From the NCBI RefSeq assembly GCF_030553305.1, contig NZ_JARRAH010000001.1, positions 806,001 to 870,000 on the forward strand: a stretch of 64,000 nt of DNA. Direction: 5' to 3'. A model generated the notes under the pieces. It was not told the origin of the DNA, did no database searches, and saw nothing but the letters and a program-made list of their open reading frames with translations. The stretch is from Halomarina ordinaria. GTDB taxonomy: Archaea; Halobacteriota; Halobacteria; Halobacteriales; Haloarculaceae. Shown piece after piece: positions 37,043 through 45,455 of this stretch (positions are counted from its first letter, which is position 1; the number at the start of each line of letters is the position of its first letter). Position numbers and translations under genes: made by a program.

Positions 37043-38026
37043 TCAGTCGAGGCGGTCGACGACGGCCGTCGTCACGTCCTCGGTGGTCGCGTCGCCGCCG
37101 AGGTCGGGCGTTCGCGGACCGTCCTCGAGGACGCCCTCGACGGCGGCCCTAACCCGCGTCGCTTCGTCGTCGTAGTCGAGGTGTTCGAGCAGCATCGCCG
37201 CCGAGAGGATGGCCGCGACGGGGTTCGCCACCCCCTCACCGGCGATGTCGGGGGCGGTGCCGTGGACCGGTTCGAACAGCGCGTTGTCCGACCCGACGTT
37301 GGCGCTCGGCAGGAGGCCGAGGCCGCCGACCAGCCCCGCCGCGAGGTCCGAGAGGACGTCGCCAGCGAGGTTGGGACAGACGACGACGCCGTACGCCTCG
37401 GGCGAGAGGGCGAGGTGCATCGCCAGCGCGTCCATCAGCGCCTCCTCGTGGTCGGCGCCGCGCTCGTCGGCGACGGCGCGCACCGCGTCCAGGAACTGCC
37501 CGTCGGTGGTGCGCATCACGTTCGCCTTGTGCGCGACGGTCACGTCGTAGCCGTGCCGCTCGGCGTAGTCGAAGCCGAACTCGGCGATGCGCCGCGAGGC
37601 GGCCTCGGTGACGACGCGCGTGAGCGTCGTGACGCCCGGCGCGATCTCGCTCTCGATGCCCGCGTACACCCCCTCGGTGTTCTCCCGGACGAACACGAGG
37701 TCCGTCTCGGGGCGGAGGGCGTCGACGCCCGGATAGGCGCGCGCGGGTCTGACGTTCGCGTAACTCCCCACCGCGGCCCGCAGCGGGAGGATGACGTCGG
37801 CGGCCGACTCGCCCGCCGCGCCGAACAGCGTGGCGTCCGCTCCCTCGACCGTCTCGACCGTCTCCTCGGGGAGCGGGTCGCCGGTCGCCTCCAGGACGGC
37901 GTCGCCCGCGTCCGCCTCGACGAACGCGAAGTCGGGAGCGAGGGCGTCGAGGACGCGCACGGCGGCCGGGGTGACCTCCCGTCCGATGCCGTCGCCGGGG
38001 ACGACGGCGATGCGCGCGTCAGCCAT
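37043..38026 (-). CDS. leuB: 3-isopropylmalate dehydrogenase
   Basis: A 327-residue NAD-dependent decarboxylating dehydrogenase of leucine biosynthesis. It begins [20 protein letters not shown] and has [32 protein letters not shown] and [18 protein letters not shown], all hallmarks of the isocitrate/isopropylmalate dehydrogenase family. LeuC and LeuD encoded immediately upstream support IPMDH over isocitrate dehydrogenase. It overlaps leuD by eight bases and is the last gene of the ilvB operon. Confidence 0.95.
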
Positions 38027-38624
38027 CGAGGTAGGGGAGGGAGGCGGCCGTCGCCGCGATTCGGTCGTCGTTCGCCGCCATGAGGGCGGTAGTGTCCCAC
38101 TTGCCCTCGACCAGCGCGGAGTGCTGGGTGTCGTCGACGGACGCCTCGACGGTCGTCTCGCCGTAGCTGACGCGCTCGTCGGCCACGTCGACCGTGATGG
38201 TCGCGTCCGGGTTCGCGTCGACGAAGTCCTGGAGCGCGTCTATCGACTCGGCGTCCGCCGTGAGGGTGGGGATGCCGAGGGCGAGGCAGTTGCCCGCGAA
38301 GATTTCCGCGAAGCTCTCGCCGACGACGCAGTCGATACCCCAGCGCATCAGCGCCTGGGGGGCGTGCTCGCGCGAGGAGCCACAGCCGAAGTTACTGTTG
38401 ACGACCAGTATCGAGGCGTCGCGGAAGCGTTCCTCGTTGAACGGGTGGTCCTTCTCCTCGTCGTCCTCCGTGTAGCGCTGGTCGAAGAAGGCGAACTCCC
38501 CGATGCCGTCGAAGGTGATGACCTTCAGGAACCGCGCCGGGATGATCTGGTCGGTGTCGATGTCGTCGCCGCGGACGGGGACGCCCGTCCCCTCGACGCG
38601 CGTGACGCGCTCCGCACCGCTCAT
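38019..38624 (-). CDS. leuD: 3-isopropylmalate dehydratase small subunit
   Basis: A 201-residue swivelling-domain subunit that with LeuC isomerises 2- to 3-isopropylmalate. [40 protein letters not shown] and [17 protein letters not shown] are diagnostic. Start ATG 38624 overlaps the leuC stop by four bases; its stop overlaps leuB. Confidence 0.95.
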
Positions 38625-40042
38625 GCGACGGCCACCTCCGGCAGTTCGCGCACGTCCGTCACCTCGCCGGTGACGGCGGCGGCGGCGACCATCGCCGGAC
38701 TCATCAGTATCGTCCGGCCCTCCGGACTCCCCTGCCGGCCGACGAAGTTGCGGTTCGAGGAGGAGGCGCACACCTCGTCGCCGACGAGCTGGTCCTCGTT
38801 CATCCCGAGGCACATCGAACAGCCGGCGCCGCGCCACTCGAAGCCGGCCGCGCGGAACACCTCGTCGAGGCCCTCGGCCTCGGCGGCGCGCTTCACGCGC
38901 TGGCTGCCGGGGACGACCATCGCCCGGACGTCTGGGTGGACCTCTCGCCCCTCCACGACGCGGGCGGCGTCGCGCAGGTCCGAGAGCCGCGCGTTCGTGC
39001 AGGACCCGAGGAAGGCGACGTCGACCGGGTAGCCCTGCATCGTCTCGCCCGGCGAGACGTGCATGTGCTCCTGGGCGCGCCGGGCCACCTCGGCCTTGCT
39101 CTCGGGCAGGTCCGCCGGGTCCGGGATGGGGTCGCCGATGCCGACGCCCTGTCCGGGGGTCGTCCCCCAGGTGACCATCGGTTCGAGCGCGCTCCCGTCG
39201 AGTTCGTACACGTCGTCGTACTCGGCGTCGTCGTCCGACCGGATGGACGCCCAGTACTCGCGCAGTTCCGCGAAGCGCTCGGGGTCGTCCGCGAACTGGT
39301 CGGTCTCGCGGAGCCACTCGAAGGTGGTCTCGTCGGGGTTGACGTAGCCGGTCCGCGCGCCCGCCTCGACGGACATGTTGCAGATGCTCATGCGCCCCTC
39401 CATCGACAGCGACTCGACGACCGGGCCGGCGTACTCGTAGACGTAGCCGACGCCGCCGTCGGTGCCGAGGTCGCGGATGACCGCGAGGATGACGTCCTTC
39501 GCCGTGACGCCCTCGCCGAGTTCGCCCGTGACGCGTATCTGGCGCACCTTCTTCTTCTCCAGGGCGAGACACTGCGTGGCGAGCACGTCGCGTATCTGGC
39601 TCGTCCCGATGCCGAAGGCGACGGCGCCGAACGCGCCGTGCGTACAGGTGTGGGAGTCCCCGCAGACGATGGTCTTGCCCGGCTGGGTGAGTCCCTGCTC
39701 CGGCCCGATGACGTGGACGATGCCCTGTCGACCCGTCTCCGGGTGGTCGAAGTCGATGGGGCGCTCGCCGACGTTCGATTCGAGCGCGCTCATCATCTCC
39801 TCGGCGGCGGCGTCGCGGTAGGGCCGCGACTGGTCCTCGGTCGGGACGATGTGGTCGACCGTCGCGTGCGTGAGGTCGGGGCGGGCCACCTCCAGGCCGC
39901 GCTCCTCGAGCATGCCGAACGCCTGCGGACTCGTCACCTCGTGGATGAGGTGGAGCCCGATGAACAGCTGGTCCTGGCCGCTCGGCAGCGTGGTGACGCG
40001 GTGGCGGTCCCACACCTTGTCGTAGAGGGTTCCTCGGCTCAT
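38621..40042 (-). CDS. leuC: 3-isopropylmalate dehydratase large subunit
   Basis: A 473-residue aconitase-family protein carrying the 4Fe-4S cluster. [56 protein letters not shown] and the second cluster segment [13 protein letters not shown] provide the three cluster cysteines. Full length. It follows a small ORF (40083-40367) in the operon and overlaps leuD. Confidence 0.96.
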
Positions 40043-40371: not shown

Positions 40372-41409
40372 TCAGTCGTCCGCCGGTGTGGTCGCCGTCT
40401 CCTCTTCCTCGCCGTCGTCGGCCCACGCGAACAGCGCGCGCAGGTCGGCGCCGACCGACTCGATGTCGTGGTTGATTTCCTTCTCGCGGCGCTGGGTGTA
40501 GCTCGGCCGGCCCGTCTGGTTCTCGGAGATCCACTCGCGGGCGAACTCGCCGTTCTGGACGCCCTCGAGCACCTCCTGCATGTTCTCGCGGACGTGGTCG
40601 TCCACGATGGCTTCGCCGCGGGTCAACCCGCCGTACTCGGCGGTGTCGGAGACGGAGTTCCACATCTCCGCCATCCCGCCCTCGTACATCAGGTCGACGA
40701 TGAGCTTCATCTCGTTGAGACACTCGAAGTACGCCATCTCGGGGCTGTAGCCAGCGTCGACGAGCGTCTCGTAGCCGCCCTTGATGAGCGCGGTGATGCC
40801 GCCACAGAGGACGGCCTGCTCGCCGAAGAGGTCCGTCTCGGTCTCCTCCTGGAACGTCGTCTCGATGACGCCCGCGCGGGTGCAGCCGATGGCCTTCGCG
40901 TAGGCGAGCGCCTCGGCTTTGGCCTCGCCGGTGGCGTCCTGGTACACCGCGAGCAGGCCGGGCGTCCCCTCGTCGGCCTCGAAGTTACGCCGGACGAGGT
41001 GACCCGGCGACTTCGGGGCGATCATCGTCACGTCGACGTCCTCGGGCGGACGGATCTGGTTGTAGTGGATGTTGAACCCGTGGGCGAACATGAGCGTGTT
41101 CCCCGCCTCGAGTTCGTCCGCGATGTCGTCGAACACCGACGGCTGGACGGTGTCGGGGACGAGCATCGTCACCACGTCGGCCTCGGCGGCCGCCTCGCGG
41201 GGCGTACCCACCTTCAGGCCGTCCTCGCGCGCGGCCGACCGCGAGGAGGAGCCCTCGTGGAGGCCGACGACCACGTCAACCCCGCTGTCGGCGAGGTTCT
41301 GTGCGTGGGCGTGGCCCTGACTGCCGTAGCCGAGGACGGCTACGGTCTTGCCGGTGATGTTCTCTGACGCTGCGTCGTCGTCGTAGTAGATAGTCGCGTT
41401 CTCTGTCAT
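40372..41409 (-). CDS. ilvC: Ketol-acid reductoisomerase
   Basis: A 345-residue NADPH-dependent class I enzyme converting acetolactate or acetohydroxybutyrate in valine, leucine and isoleucine synthesis. The nucleotide loop [34 protein letters not shown], and metal-site [14 protein letters not shown] with [19 protein letters not shown] are intact. The C-terminus is acidic. It follows ilvN by 24 bases. Confidence 0.97.
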
Positions 41410-41433: not shown

Positions 41434-42072
41434 TTACTCCGAATCGGACGTGCCCATCTCCGTCTGCATGCGCTCGTAGCGCTCCTCCTCGGCGTCGGTC
41501 GTCCACTCGTCGCCGCGCGCCAGCGCGGTCTGGCCGGTGCGCGCGAGTTCGCGGATACCGAACTGCCGGTAGGCGTCGATGGCGTCGTTTATCTTCTGTT
41601 CGTCGCCGGTGATCTCGACGGTGATGGTCCGCGGGCCGGCGTCGAGCGTCCGGCCGTCGTACATCTGCGTGATGGCGTTGACCTTGTCGGGTTCGTCGCC
41701 GTGGACCTTCAAGACGACGAGTTCGCGCCGGATGGCGTCGCCGCCGAGTTCCCGGACCGAGATGACCGGCTGGAGCTTCAACAGCTGTTTCTCCACCTGC
41801 CGGACGCCCGGCTCCGGTTCCTCGATGACGAGCGTGATGCGCGCCGTCTCGGGGTTGGTCGTCGAGCCGACGGTCAGCGACTCGATGTTGAACTGCCGGC
41901 GGCTGACCAGCCCGGAGACCTTCGCCAGCACGCCGGGTTCGTGATAGACCAGCGCCGAGAGCGCCGTCCGGCGCGGCTCGTGGGTCGCCTCCGCGTGAGG
42001 GTCGACCCGGATGCCCTGTGAGGAGCGACGGCCGACCGGCCGGGTGCGCTCCTCGGGTGCGGGACCGTGCAT
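41434..42072 (-). CDS. ilvN: Acetolactate synthase small (regulatory) subunit
   Basis: A 212-residue regulatory subunit with an N-terminal ACT domain (ALVYHEPGVLAKVSGLVSRR, FNIESLTVGSTTNPETARIT) that in homologues binds valine for feedback inhibition, and the IlvN C-terminal part (YDGRTLDAGPRTITVEITGD). The first 35 or so residues are an extra polar leader. Its ATG shares one base with the ilvB stop. Confidence 0.94.
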   Translation of the reverse strand: MHGPAPEERTRPVGRRSSQGIRVDPHAEATHEPRRTALSALVYHEPGVLAKVSGLVSRRQFNIESLTVGSTTNPETARITLVIEEPEPGVRQVEKQLLKLQPVISVRELGGDAIRRELVVLKVHGDEPDKVNAITQMYDGRTLDAGPRTITVEITGDEQKINDAIDAYRQFGIRELARTGQTALARGDEWTTDAEEERYERMQTEMGTSDSE

Positions 42073-43871
42073 CACAGGTGGTCCTCCGAGAGGGCGAACT
42101 GGTCGTTGGCACCGCCGCTCGGCACCATCGGGTAGACGTTCTCGGCGGGGTCGACGAACGCGTCGACCACCGAGGGGCCGTCGTAGTCGAGCGCCGCCTC
42201 CAGCGTGTCCGCGACGTCGTCGTAGTCGTCGACGGTGAACCCGCGGGCGCCGAACGCCTCCGCCAGCGTGGCGAAGTCCGGCATCCACCGGTACTCGGAG
42301 GCCATCCGTCGACCGCCGAAGAAGGCGTCCTGCCACTGGCGGACCATCCCGATGGCCTCGTTGTTCAGCACGACCACCGTGATGTCGAGGTTCTCGCGGA
42401 CCGCGACGGAGAGCTCCTGAACCGTCATCAGGAACGAGCCGTCGCCGTCGAAGCAGACGACCTCGCGGTCGGGGGCGGCGAGTTTCGCGCCGATGGCCGC
42501 CGGCAGGCCGTAGCCCATCGTCCCCAGCCCGTGCGAGGAGATGTAGGTGCGCGGTTCGGTGTACGTCCAGAACTGCGCGGCCCACATCTGGTGCTGGCCG
42601 ACGCCCGTGGTGACGAGCGTGTCGTCGGGCGTCATCTCGTCGAGCGCCTCCACGACGAACTGCGGCTTGAGCGGTTCGTCGTCGGGCGTCGTGTAGGACA
42701 TGGGGTACTCCTCCTTCCACGTCGCGCACTGCTCGCGCCACGTCGCCCACCGGTCGTCGGGACCGTCGGGCAGCGTCTCGAACAGCTGGTCGAGGACGAC
42801 GCCCGCGTCGCCCACCAGCGGGTAGTCCGCGTGGACGTTCTTCGATATCTCCGCGGGGTCGATGTCGACGTGGACGACGGTCGCGTCGGGTGCGAACGTC
42901 TCGATACCGCCGGTGAGGCGGTCGTCGAAGCGCGTGCCGACCGCCAGCAGGCAGTCGGTGTGGCTGATGGCCATGTTCGCGTAGCCGGTGCCGTGCATCC
43001 CGGCCCACGACAGACACAGGTCGTGGTCCTCGGGGAACGTCCCGATGCCGGGCATCGTCGTGACGACCGGCACCTCGAACGTCGTCGCGAACCGGCGCAG
43101 TTCCTCGCTCGCGTTCGCCTTCGTGACGCCGCCGCCGGCGAGGACGAGCGGTTTCTCGGCACTCGCGAGCGCCTCGGCCGCCCGCTCGACGGCCTGCGGT
43201 TCGGCCGCGGGCGCCGCCGCCGCGTCGCGCTCCTCCGGCGGTCGGGCCTCCGTCTCCGCGTTGGTGACGTCCTTCGGGAGGTCGACGAGCGTCGGGCCGG
43301 GACGGCCCTCGCCCGCGACCGTGAACGCCTCCGTGACGAGGTCGCCGATGGTCGTCTCGTCGTCCGCGAAGTAGTTCGCCTTCGTGATGGGCCGGGTGAC
43401 GCCGACGGTGTCGGTCTCCTGAAACGCGTCGTTGCCGACGAAGTTCGTCGGGACCTGCCCCGTCAGCGCGAGCACGGGGTCGGAGTCCATGTTCGCGTCC
43501 GCGATGCCCGTCACGAGGTTGGTCGCGCCGGGCCCCGAGGTGGCGAAACAGACGCCCGGCGCGCCCGTGACCTGTCCGTAGGCGTCGGCCGCGTGGGCCG
43601 CGCCCTGCTCGTGGGCCATCGTCACGTGGGCGATGTCCGAGTGGTAGAGCGCGTCGTAGACGGGCATGATGGCCCCGCCCTGCACGCCGAAGACGTGCTC
43701 GACGTTCGCGCGCTCGAGGGCGGTGACCACCGCCGCCGCACCCGTCGTCCGCTCCGGCGTCGCCGCCGCGTCCTCGGTGGTCGCGTCGGCCTCGCCGCCG
43801 GTTTCCCCCGTGGTCTCGGTTTCGGTCTCGGTCTCCTGGCTCGCCGGTCGCGCCGGGCTACCTTCGCTCAT
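42072..43871 (-). CDS. ilvB: Acetolactate synthase large subunit
   Basis: A 599-residue ThDP-dependent enzyme forming acetolactate or acetohydroxybutyrate. HVFGVQGGAIMPVYDAL, the catalytic Glu segment VTMAHEQGAAHAADAYG, GPGATNLVTGIADANMDSDP and the ThDP signature VVCFDGDGSFLMTVQELSVA are present. The first 35 residues are a Thr/Glu-rich leader typical of halophiles. Start ATG 43871 is supported by a GGAGG site 6 bases upstream (43878-43882). This site is unusual for a first gene here and goes with the 199-base leader that holds a small ORF. Confidence 0.96.
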   Translation of the reverse strand: MSEGSPARPASQETETETETTGETGGEADATTEDAAATPERTTGAAAVVTALERANVEHVFGVQGGAIMPVYDALYHSDIAHVTMAHEQGAAHAADAYGQVTGAPGVCFATSGPGATNLVTGIADANMDSDPVLALTGQVPTNFVGNDAFQETDTVGVTRPITKANYFADDETTIGDLVTEAFTVAGEGRPGPTLVDLPKDVTNAETEARPPEERDAAAAPAAEPQAVERAAEALASAEKPLVLAGGGVTKANASEELRRFATTFEVPVVTTMPGIGTFPEDHDLCLSWAGMHGTGYANMAISHTDCLLAVGTRFDDRLTGGIETFAPDATVVHVDIDPAEISKNVHADYPLVGDAGVVLDQLFETLPDGPDDRWATWREQCATWKEEYPMSYTTPDDEPLKPQFVVEALDEMTPDDTLVTTGVGQHQMWAAQFWTYTEPRTYISSHGLGTMGYGLPAAIGAKLAAPDREVVCFDGDGSFLMTVQELSVAVRENLDITVVVLNNEAIGMVRQWQDAFFGGRRMASEYRWMPDFATLAEAFGARGFTVDDYDDVADTLEAALDYDGPSVVDAFVDPAENVYPMVPSGGANDQFALSEDHL

Positions 43872-43877
43872 GCTGTG

Positions 43878-43882
43878 CCTCC
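43878..43882 (-). promoter_or_regulatory. Shine-Dalgarno site of ilvB
   Basis: GGAGG on the minus strand, 6 bases before the ilvB ATG. A complementary CCTCC occurs in the same leader (minus strand, 43964-43968) and could pair with it, masking ribosome binding. Confidence 0.6.
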
Positions 43883-43973
43883 GGTCGATGTGTGGTGTCG
43901 TGTGCTCGCGTCATCGCTGACTGCGGTCGCTGCTCTGAATCGATACGGTAAACGGGGTCTGGGGGAGGATGGT

Positions 43974-43995
43974 GTAGGGGCTAGGCGGCCCCTAC
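43974..43995 (-). promoter_or_regulatory. 8-bp hairpin overlapping the stop codon of the ilvB leader peptide
   Basis: On the minus strand GTAGGGGC and GCCCCTAC form a perfect 8-bp stem with a 6-base loop. The 5' arm starts at the Val GTA codon of the small ORF and the TAG stop lies in the loop and 3' arm. A ribosome paused on the preceding Ile codons, or sitting at the stop, would prevent this stem. No U-tract follows, so it is not an obvious intrinsic terminator. Confidence 0.6.
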
Positions 43996-44070
43996 GATTA
44001 TCGACAGAATCGAGCCGAGCACACCGGTCGCTGCGCGGCCCTGCGGACCCGCGGCGACTGTGCGCGTCAT
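43981..44070 (-). CDS. Candidate branched-chain amino acid leader peptide of ilvB (29 aa)
   Basis: A 29-codon ORF, ATG 44070 to TAG 43981, lying 109 bases before ilvB. The C-terminal part reads GVLGSILSIIVGAA: three Ile, two Leu and two Val in the last 13 residues. The Ile codons are ATT, ATA, ATC and one Val is GTA; ATA and GTA are very rare in this GC-rich genome. The TATA element at 44093-44100 puts the transcript start at the ATG, so the ORF would be translated from a leaderless end. This is the layout of ilv leader peptides used in bacterial attenuation. No such peptide is known to me in haloarchaea; translation is inferred. Confidence 0.65.
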   Translation of the reverse strand: MTRTVAAGPQGRAATGVLGSILSIIVGAA

Positions 44071-44198: not shown

Positions 44199-45401
44199 TT
44201 ACTGGACGCCCTCCGTCACCGGTTCCGGTCGGCGGACGCCGACCTCGCGGGCGAAGCGCTCGAAGGTGTCGTCGGTGACGCGCTCCTTGGCGGCCCCGTG
44301 GTCCTTCACCCGGCGGGTGACCGCGCGTACCTCCTCGTCGGTCGGCTCGAAGCCGGCGTCGGCGAGGCGCTCGCGGACCGAGTGGGTCCCCGTGTGCTTG
44401 CCCATCACCAGTTCGCGCTCGGCGCCGACCATCTCGGGGGTCATCACGCCCGGCTCGAACGTCGCCGAGTTCTCGATGACGCCCGCGGCGTGGATGCCCG
44501 ACTCGTGGGCGAAGGCGTTGCGGCCGACGACCGGCTTGTTCGCCGGAATCTCCATCGCGCTGGTGCGCTCGACCAGGTCCGCCAGCGCGCGAATCTGGGT
44601 CGTGTCGATGCCGGTGTCGACGTCGTAGAGGCTCTCCAGGGCCATCACCACCTCCTCGTAGGCGGCGTTGCCGGCCCGCTCGCCGATGCCGTTGACGCTC
44701 ACCTGCGCGCTCGCGGCGCCGGCTTCCATCCCGGCGATGGCGTTCGCCGTCGCCAGCCCGAAGTCGTCGTGGGTGTGGACGTCTATCTTCGCGTCCGTGT
44801 GCGCGTCGATGGTGGCGATGAGGTCGGCGAAGCGCGTCGGCGTCGCGACCCCGCAGGTGTCGGGGACGTTGATCCAGTCGACGCCAGCCTCGGAGACGGC
44901 CTCGACCACCTCGACGAGGAACTCGCCGTCGGTGCGCGTGGCGTCCATCGGGGAGAACATCACGTCGATGCCCGCCTCGCGGACGCGCTCGATGGAGCGA
45001 ATCGACCGCTCGACGGCCTCCTCACGCGAGGCGTGCATGGAGTCCTCGAGCTGGACGTCGCTCGTGCTGACGAAGACGTGGACCATGTCCACGTCGGCGT
45101 CGATGGCGGCCTCGACGTCCGCGTCGACGACGCGCGCCAGCCCGCAGACCGTCGCCGTCGTGTCGGCGGCGATGTCGCGGACGGCGGCGAACTCCGCGTC
45201 GGAGTTCACCGGGAACCCCGCCTCGATGACGTGGGTGCCCATCGCGTCCAGACGCGCGGCTATCTCCCGCTTGTCGTCGTACGAGAACGACGTTCGTGGC
45301 GACTGCTCGCCGTCGCGCAGCGTAGTATCGAAAATCTGTGCAGTGCTGATCTCGGAGGTGTTACTCAGCGTGCCCTCGAAGAACTCGACCCGCCGGGGCA
45401 T
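44199..45401 (-). CDS. leuA: 2-isopropylmalate synthase (LeuA/CimA family)
   Basis: A 400-residue homolog of isopropylmalate, citramalate and homocitrate synthases, using acetyl-CoA. It has [20 protein letters not shown], metal-binding [20 protein letters not shown], and [20 protein letters not shown]. The C-terminal regulatory domain of classical LeuA is absent (length 400), as in many archaeal members; the leu cluster context favours isopropylmalate synthase, but citramalate synthase cannot be excluded. ATG 45401 is preceded by a GGAGG site. A second ATG 28 bases upstream in another frame sits at the predicted transcript start. Confidence 0.88.
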
Positions 45402-45429
45402 CCGACGTGTCCTCCGTAATGTTGGACAT
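45361..45429 (-). CDS. 22-codon ORF overlapping the leuA start in another frame
   Basis: ATG 45429 opens 22 codons ([16 protein letters not shown]...) ending TAA at 45361, overlapping the leuA 5' end by 41 bases. The minus-strand TATA element CTTTAATA (45456-45463) puts the transcript start about 4 bases before this ATG. Either it is an upstream ORF affecting leuA, or it is the original leuA N-terminus put out of frame by one inserted base in the GCCCCGG run near 45397. The second reading would give an ordinary acidic halophilic N-terminus. Confidence 0.45.
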
Positions 45430-45455
45430 TGTAACTCACCCAAGCGACGGGAGGG

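Follow-up and report, generated by a model that had tools for sequence, protein, structure and literature searches.

Is the synthesis of branched-chain amino acids in an archaeon controlled by a leader peptide? The question is raised by a short open reading frame (ORF) situated between leuA and ilvB in Halomarina ordinaria, within a window of 64,000 nucleotides that makes up the whole stretch of DNA analysed here (contig NZ_JARRAH010000001.1, positions 806,001 to 870,000). All coordinates below refer to this window, and all of the features described lie on its minus strand. A reading made from sequence alone, without database searches, had proposed that this ORF encodes an amino acid-sensing leader at the 5′ end of the ilvB-ilvN-ilvC-leuCDB transcript. 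Attenuation mediated by the ribosome is a textbook mechanism in bacteria and relies on the coupling of transcription and translation; archaea are thought to couple these processes too. A review of transcription-translation coupling in archaea contains no example of attenuation (PMC8116511), and no report of a leader-peptide attenuator in an archaeon was found in the open-access literature searched, which did not cover subscription papers. To our knowledge, no ribosome-driven leader switch of the ilvB type has been described outside the bacteria.

The leader ORF and its operon

The leader ORF is composed of 29 codons and a TAG stop (44070-43981), with its ATG at 44070 and its stop codon at 43983-43981, and would encode the peptide MTRTVAAGPQGRAATGVLGSILSIIVGAA. 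A TATA-like element, CTTATGAC (44100-44093), is situated 23-30 bases 5′ of the ATG, and 109 bases separate the ORF from the ilvB ATG (43871). The position of the ORF, the position of the TATA element and the length of the gap to ilvB had all been given in the sequence-only reading, and each held exactly. An alternative start codon 27 nt upstream (44097) is unlikely, as it overlaps the TATA element. The ORF ends with the codons ATT CTG TCG ATA ATC GTA GGG GCC GCC TAG, among which are the ATT, CTG, ATA, ATC and GTA codons previously pointed out. The candidate control codons, GTG CTC GGC TCG ATT CTG TCG ATA ATC GTA (V L - - I L - I I V), occupy 43993-44022.

Upstream of the leader lies a leuA-like gene for a 2-isopropylmalate/citramalate synthase (44199-45443; NF002085, E 9e-138). 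Downstream, a Shine-Dalgarno (SD)-like GGAGG, recognised by its sequence (43878-43882), precedes ilvB, the first structural gene after the leader, which encodes the large subunit of acetolactate synthase (42072-43871; TIGR00118, E 1.3e-214). There follow ilvN, for the small subunit of the same enzyme (41434-42075; TIGR00119, E 5e-43), ilvC, for ketol-acid reductoisomerase (40372-41409; TIGR00465, E 9e-134), leuC, for the large subunit of 3-isopropylmalate dehydratase (38621-40042; TIGR00170, E 7e-174), and a leuB-like gene for isopropylmalate dehydrogenase (37043-38026; TIGR02088, E 4e-113), with leuD (NF002458, E 1.2e-59) between the last two. The locus meets one criterion for an attenuator, namely a short ORF rich in codons for the amino acids of the pathway and placed between the promoter and the first structural gene. 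An Rfam search of the leader region returned no significant family match, and the criterion of a known riboswitch or T-box was not met.

Conservation among the haloarchaea

The ilvB loci compared came from two sources, 40 related genomes and a scan of GTDB species genomes; they number 110, two of which lacked upstream sequence. Because some species occur in both locus sets, statistics were based on 96 distinct sequences. Across these two main searches, an equivalent of the leader is present at every one of the 108 assessable haloarchaeal ilvB loci. In 103 of them it takes a strict form, in which a short upstream ORF (uORF) ends in I-V-G, one to four further codons and a stop, over the motif AT(T/C)GTAGGG. 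The shared layout consists of an ATG approximately 30 nt past a TATA box, a peptide end of (I/R)-I-V-G-(A/V), a stop codon in or just past a GC hairpin (AGGGGC/GCCCCT), and then approximately 20 bases free of G. The alignment across haloarchaea that had been suggested as a check on the sequence-only reading was thus strongly positive and makes the observation stronger than first described: the uORF has been retained together with its frame, an ATG close to the promoter and its branched-chain content. The conservation of the ilvB leader, along with its frame, promoter spacing, codons and hairpin, is established.

Five loci were missed by the uORF search, and counting them as absences was rejected since each carries a variant of the same leader. 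One ends in IVRAR-stop, with the stem now CGGGC/GCCCG (L019), and another in RVGAP-stop (L103); the other three have no stop in the loop and terminate a few codons past an intact hairpin (L065, L093 and L108). A further draw of genomes yielded the motif at nearly every added haloarchaeal ilvB, plus one more variant (L124), which ends in SIRVRAAMAH-stop over the stem GTACGGGCC...GGCCCAC. A paralogous ilvB on another contig (L216; G016:C9:13200-16000) has its own leader, ending in NSIIGASY-stop, in which the hairpin is kept and the GTA codon is lost. When 40 genomes were scanned with the pattern TRTAGGGGN{4,14}CCCCTA, the ilvB leader was the sole site. The distance between leader and ilvB ranges from 43 to 333 nt, and a recognisable ilvB SD is missing in 37 of the 96 relatives.

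The leader is absent from two deep-branching genomes (L211 in G031 and L212 in G033), where leuA reaches almost to ilvB. These genomes, which are placed in the same order, mark a possible point of origin of the leader within the group.

A probably leaderless frame, inferred to be translated

Although the leader ORFs range from 14 to 54 codons in length, A+T content still peaks sharply at positions -32 to -27 from the ATG across the 96 loci, where it is at least 0.8. A start of transcription at or close to the ATG would produce this spacing, and thus the leader is probably leaderless. A transcription start at the leader ATG itself agrees with the TATA spacing and is inferred from that spacing alone, without a mapped start site. 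When a TATA box was chosen blindly, the ATG approximately 30 nt past it shared the frame of the hairpin motif in 70 of 74 loci.

The enrichment in branched-chain residues is specific to this frame. Over the eight codons before IVG, Ile, Leu and Val account for 38% of residues in this frame but only 5% and 7% in the two others, and for 10% in the rest of the same ORFs and 18% in ilvB. This stretch holds 295 such residues, as compared with 155 ± 9 when codons are shuffled within the peptides. The richness in Ile, Val and Leu described in the sequence-only reading therefore holds, well above chance, by both frame comparison and codon shuffling. The enrichment peaks over the last five codons ahead of the conserved Ile-Val, and it is codons -5 to +1 relative to this pair that define the candidate control codons. 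With 5% acidic and 11% basic residues, the leader peptides are basic, and toward their N-termini they show very little conservation of sequence or length. An open frame by itself was given no weight, as frame +2 is also open in these GC-rich sequences. Translation of the leader has only indirect support and is inferred from the frame-specific codon bias, the TATA spacing and the conserved stop.

The hairpin at the stop codon

The end of the leader forms a perfect hairpin, GTAGGGGC-CGCCTA-GCCCCTAC (43995-43974), in which the TAG spans the loop and the first base of the 3′ arm. The earlier reading made no mention of this conserved hairpin around the stop codon, which was added by the present follow-up. 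The 53-nt hairpin stretch has a fold energy of -17.4 kcal/mol (z = -3.3 versus dinucleotide shuffles), and the core stem is paired in essentially all 111 loci, so that a second attenuator criterion, a conserved hairpin at or just after the control codons, is met. The stop remains in or just past the hairpin, though its identity (TAG, TAA or TGA) and the loop vary.

Stem pairs were counted by a script with anchored arms, as a plain MAFFT alignment could not handle the variable loop. Compensatory changes were found in L019 and L124, both of which replace Gly with Arg, and in L014, which replaces Ala with Pro. As these swaps alter the peptide, the RNA is evidently kept at the peptide's expense at these three loci. 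L029 and L035 were left out of the count because the pattern had matched an upstream GTACGG, which leaves L019 and L124 as the only real C-G swaps at G1. The covariation is genuine, but with approximately three independent events it is thin, because the stem is almost invariant.

The codons show a similar mixture of constraints. The conserved Val codon is GTA in all 96 distinct loci, while GTA accounts for 0.6% of the Val codons in ilvB, and it is retained in 27 loci where its A has no pairing partner. The conserved Ile codon is ATT in 76% of loci versus 7% in ilvB, and CTT makes up 32% of Leu codons near the leader end versus 3% in ilvB. The emphasis that the sequence-only reading placed on rare codons thus held in part: GTA is conserved, as is ATT, but the rare Ile codon ATA is not. 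Near the leader end, Arg and Gly too are enriched in rare codons ending in T, and hence part of the codon bias acts at the nucleotide level and does not concern branched-chain codons. GTAGGGG is itself almost invariant at the nucleotide level. Constraint on the nucleotides, as seen in the hairpin and GTAGGGG, matters as much as constraint on the peptide.

The G-free tract and possible termination

Behind the loop at the Halomarina locus is a G-free run of 21 bases (43980-43960), which begins in the 3′ arm and continues as a C/A/U tract predicted to be single-stranded. Past the 3′ arm, the G-free stretch has a median length of 20 nt versus 2 nt at control positions. Folding of 92 leaders gave one dominant helix, the hairpin, and no consistent competing or antiterminator helix; the tract was mostly unpaired by prediction, and its pairing with the SD region was rare (mean 0.09). 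Pairing of the tract with the ilvB SD, or the formation of any alternative hairpin, is unsupported by this folding. A U-tract directly past the stem was not found in the haloarchaeal leaders, nor did a scan for bacterial-type terminators find any, and a T-run of at least four occurs in the next 40 nt in only 17 of the 96 haloarchaeal loci. With one helix and no U-tract, the leader fits neither the standard two-helix attenuator nor a terminator of the U-tract type.

Among the 3′ ends mapped in Haloferax volcanii, 503 have a hairpin no more than 10 nt upstream, and a hairpin tested in a reporter terminated 59% of transcripts (PMC7237163). These data make a hairpin terminator without a U-tract plausible in this group. 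The termination factor FttA is reported to prefer U-rich RNA (PMC11616081), which, given the C-rich tract, speaks against its simple recruitment. A hairpin without a U-tract, together with this preference of FttA, implies that the proposed termination step would not be of the standard archaeal kind.

Leaders at other archaeal loci

At 21 of 30 haloarchaeal pheS loci, the gene is preceded by a short ORF that ends in a Phe-rich stretch, mostly GFGFFF(A), with a TATA element approximately 29 nt before the ATG of the ORF. This uORF is a possible second attenuator, responding to Phe. In Haloferax volcanii, a 26-residue pheS uORF was listed in a study of transcription start sites without a regulatory reading (PMC4983044, Table 2). 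The pheS loci (L181-L210; e.g. L184, G000, C1:1989695-1990525 minus) also show a stem past the stop, many with a conserved GGCGGACUC on the 5′ side and GACGAAA on the 3′ side.

A second archaeal family (f21; L144, L146-L148, L222 and L231-L246), tentatively identified as probably the Archaeoglobaceae, has a short ORF before ilvB in 18 of 18 genomes. These leaders carry five to nine branched-chain residues in their last 10, with a full TATA box 26-34 nt before the ATG. Several possess a hairpin and a T-run, and so a U-tract is present there; others abut the ilvB ribosome site. This independent ilvB leader, along with the conservation in haloarchaea, supports the earlier proposal of an amino acid-sensing archaeal leader, with regulation by amino acids itself unproven and inferred. 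No comparable ilvB ORF with such a promoter was found in 18 genomes of other lineages, and an Rfam search of the pheS and second-lineage loci returned no significant family match.

A conserved leader of the ilvB kind was absent at haloarchaeal trpC, trpS/tyrS, ileS/valS and hisG, where some gene starts were assigned mechanically and may be wrong. Haloarchaeal trpC (L151-L180) appears to be leaderless, and its promoter often has a TGTACA-containing inverted repeat around the start. Control of trp may possibly be exerted at the DNA level rather than by a leader peptide.

A proposed mechanism

The ilvB leader is likely to be a ribosome-mediated attenuator that senses charged tRNA for the branched-chain amino acids. 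Its translation, the stalling of the ribosome, the response to amino acids and the off-step are all inferred from sequence alone. It is likewise inferred, and likely, that this attenuator acts on the ilvB-ilvN-ilvC-leuCDB transcript. Transcription would start no more than a few bases from the uORF ATG, such that the leader ORF would be the first thing read by the ribosome, through leaderless initiation. During a shortage of charged tRNA for Ile, Val or Leu, the ribosome would slow in the I/L/V run just before the hairpin, mainly at GTA, the rare Val codon that never varies, and at the Ile codon, which is usually ATT. The slowed ribosome would cover the 5′ arm (GTAGGGG), the hairpin would not form and RNA polymerase would continue into ilvB. 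When the amino acids are plentiful, the ribosome would get to the stop in the hairpin and depart, allowing the hairpin to form with the G-free tract bare. The formed hairpin may then bring transcription to an early end, either in a hairpin-dependent manner like that of Haloferax volcanii or with the aid of a factor. The I/L/V codons lie at most approximately 15 nt from the 5′ arm, which is the position that the mechanism would need, as inferred from the size of the bacterial ribosome.

For the off-step, transcription termination at the hairpin is inferred, at slightly better than even odds, and is preferred over a translational or mRNA-decay step, which is held to be clearly less likely. The weak point of the model is timing, as a ribosome close behind the polymerase would itself hold the hairpin open in the replete state. 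This problem leaves some probability for control through ilvB translation or mRNA decay. Also counting against the model are the lack of an antiterminator pairing, the nucleotide-level share of the codon bias and the missing leader in two deep lineages.

Alternative explanations

The likeliest rival is leader-peptide control through ilvB translation or mRNA stability, in which the hairpin and tract would govern how accessible ilvB is, or target the mRNA for decay after the leader ribosome has departed. It is possible but rather unlikely. The missing U-tract past the hairpin favours it, as does a pyrimidine-rich tract that in some species could pair with the SD of ilvB. In the second archaeal lineage, the stop is found beside a GAGGTGG sequence, 15-43 nt ahead of the core start of ilvB, an arrangement that suits translational control there. 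Against this rival, folding predicts a haloarchaeal tract that is unpaired and seldom paired to the SD region, the spacing to ilvB varies over the wide range given above, and more than a third of ilvB genes (37/96) have no recognisable SD.

A second alternative holds that the inverted repeat GTAGGGGC/GCCCCTAC is a DNA operator or a protein-binding RNA site and that the ORF is incidental. The near invariance of GTAGGGG at the nucleotide level and the palindromic nature of the element favour it, and a TGTACA-type palindrome apparently serves trpC. However, the I/L/V enrichment is frame-specific, 70 of 74 loci have their TATA-defined ATG in frame, and the stop position is kept despite changes in stop identity and loop. 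The distance from the promoter also varies by 120 nt, compensatory swaps that alter the sequence are tolerated in the stem, and a parallel Phe leader exists at pheS. This alternative is thus very unlikely.

Nascent-peptide arrest, in which the IIVGA end would stall the ribosome at the stop when a ligand is present, in the manner of tnaC, finds support in the conserved C-terminus IVG(A/V) and the stop inside the hairpin. It is also very improbable: the Gly and its flanking residues vary (IVRAR, IRVRAAMAH, IIGASY and IVGALSPHF) while the hairpin stays, the last residues vary freely, and a biosynthesis operon requires a sign of regulation opposite to that of tnaC. Finally, it is highly improbable that the uORF encodes a functional microprotein merely co-transcribed with ilvB. 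Haloarchaea do have many small proteins of annotated size (PMC4983044), but here the N-terminal part shows very little conservation, the peptide is basic, unlike haloarchaeal proteins, and the invariant wobble bases indicate a function at the RNA level.

Relationship to known systems and implications

The type of mechanism proposed here, attenuation by a leader peptide, is known from bacteria; the archaeal setting and the single-hairpin layout without a U-tract are new as far as can be checked. The actinobacterial ilvB leaders (the Corynebacterium ilvB-II motif, PMC10272879; Mycobacterium and Streptomyces, PMC1262725) are alike in comprising a short ORF with runs of Ile, Val and Leu codons before the same operon, the end of which overlaps a hairpin. 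These bacterial leaders differ in having a terminator and a poly-U tract, and in Corynebacterium also an antiterminator, whereas the haloarchaeal leader has a single hairpin with the stop in or just past it and no U-tract, and no sequence relationship was seen between the two. The leaderless cysteine-rich uORFs of mycobacteria (PMC4633059) are alike in their C-terminal regulatory codons, their placement as the first cistron and the lack of an obvious U-tract terminator, and they are leaderless, as the haloarchaeal ORF probably is. They are, however, bacterial and concerned with cysteine, and Rho-type or translational control has been proposed for them; archaea lack Rho.

Enterobacterial attenuators (ilvBN, ilvGMEDA, trp, his, pheA and pheST) carry codons for the amino acid of the pathway before biosynthetic or synthetase genes. 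They present the same combination of ilv and pheS targets as the haloarchaeal leaders, but have SD-led leaders, alternative 1:2, 2:3 and 3:4 hairpins and a U-tract terminator, none of which is found in the haloarchaeal leader. The mutually exclusive antiterminator and terminator helices of the enterobacterial type were not predicted in the 92 haloarchaeal ilvB leaders folded, and the U-tract of that type is likewise missing from the haloarchaeal leaders. The 26-aa pheS uORF listed among the 5′-UTR small proteins of Haloferax volcanii (PMC4983044, Table 2) seems to correspond to the Phe leader described above; ilvB is not in that table.

A bolder reading, toward which the evidence leans without settling it, is that amino-acid-responsive leader-peptide attenuation is widespread in Archaea in a leaderless form, serving ilvB and pheS in Halobacteria and ilvB, with unrelated peptides, in a second archaeal class. 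In place of the U-tract terminator, the halobacterial form would rely on a single hairpin surrounding the leader stop and on a G-free tract. If true, this layout implies an off-switch that has not been described for bacterial attenuators. Nearly all haloarchaeal genomes examined carry the leader, among them genera for which genetic tools exist, and it would offer a natural means of reporting on coupling, leaderless translation, codon-specific stalling and termination without a U-tract in Archaea. Together, the pheS leader and the second lineage suggest that the mechanism may be old or may have arisen more than once.
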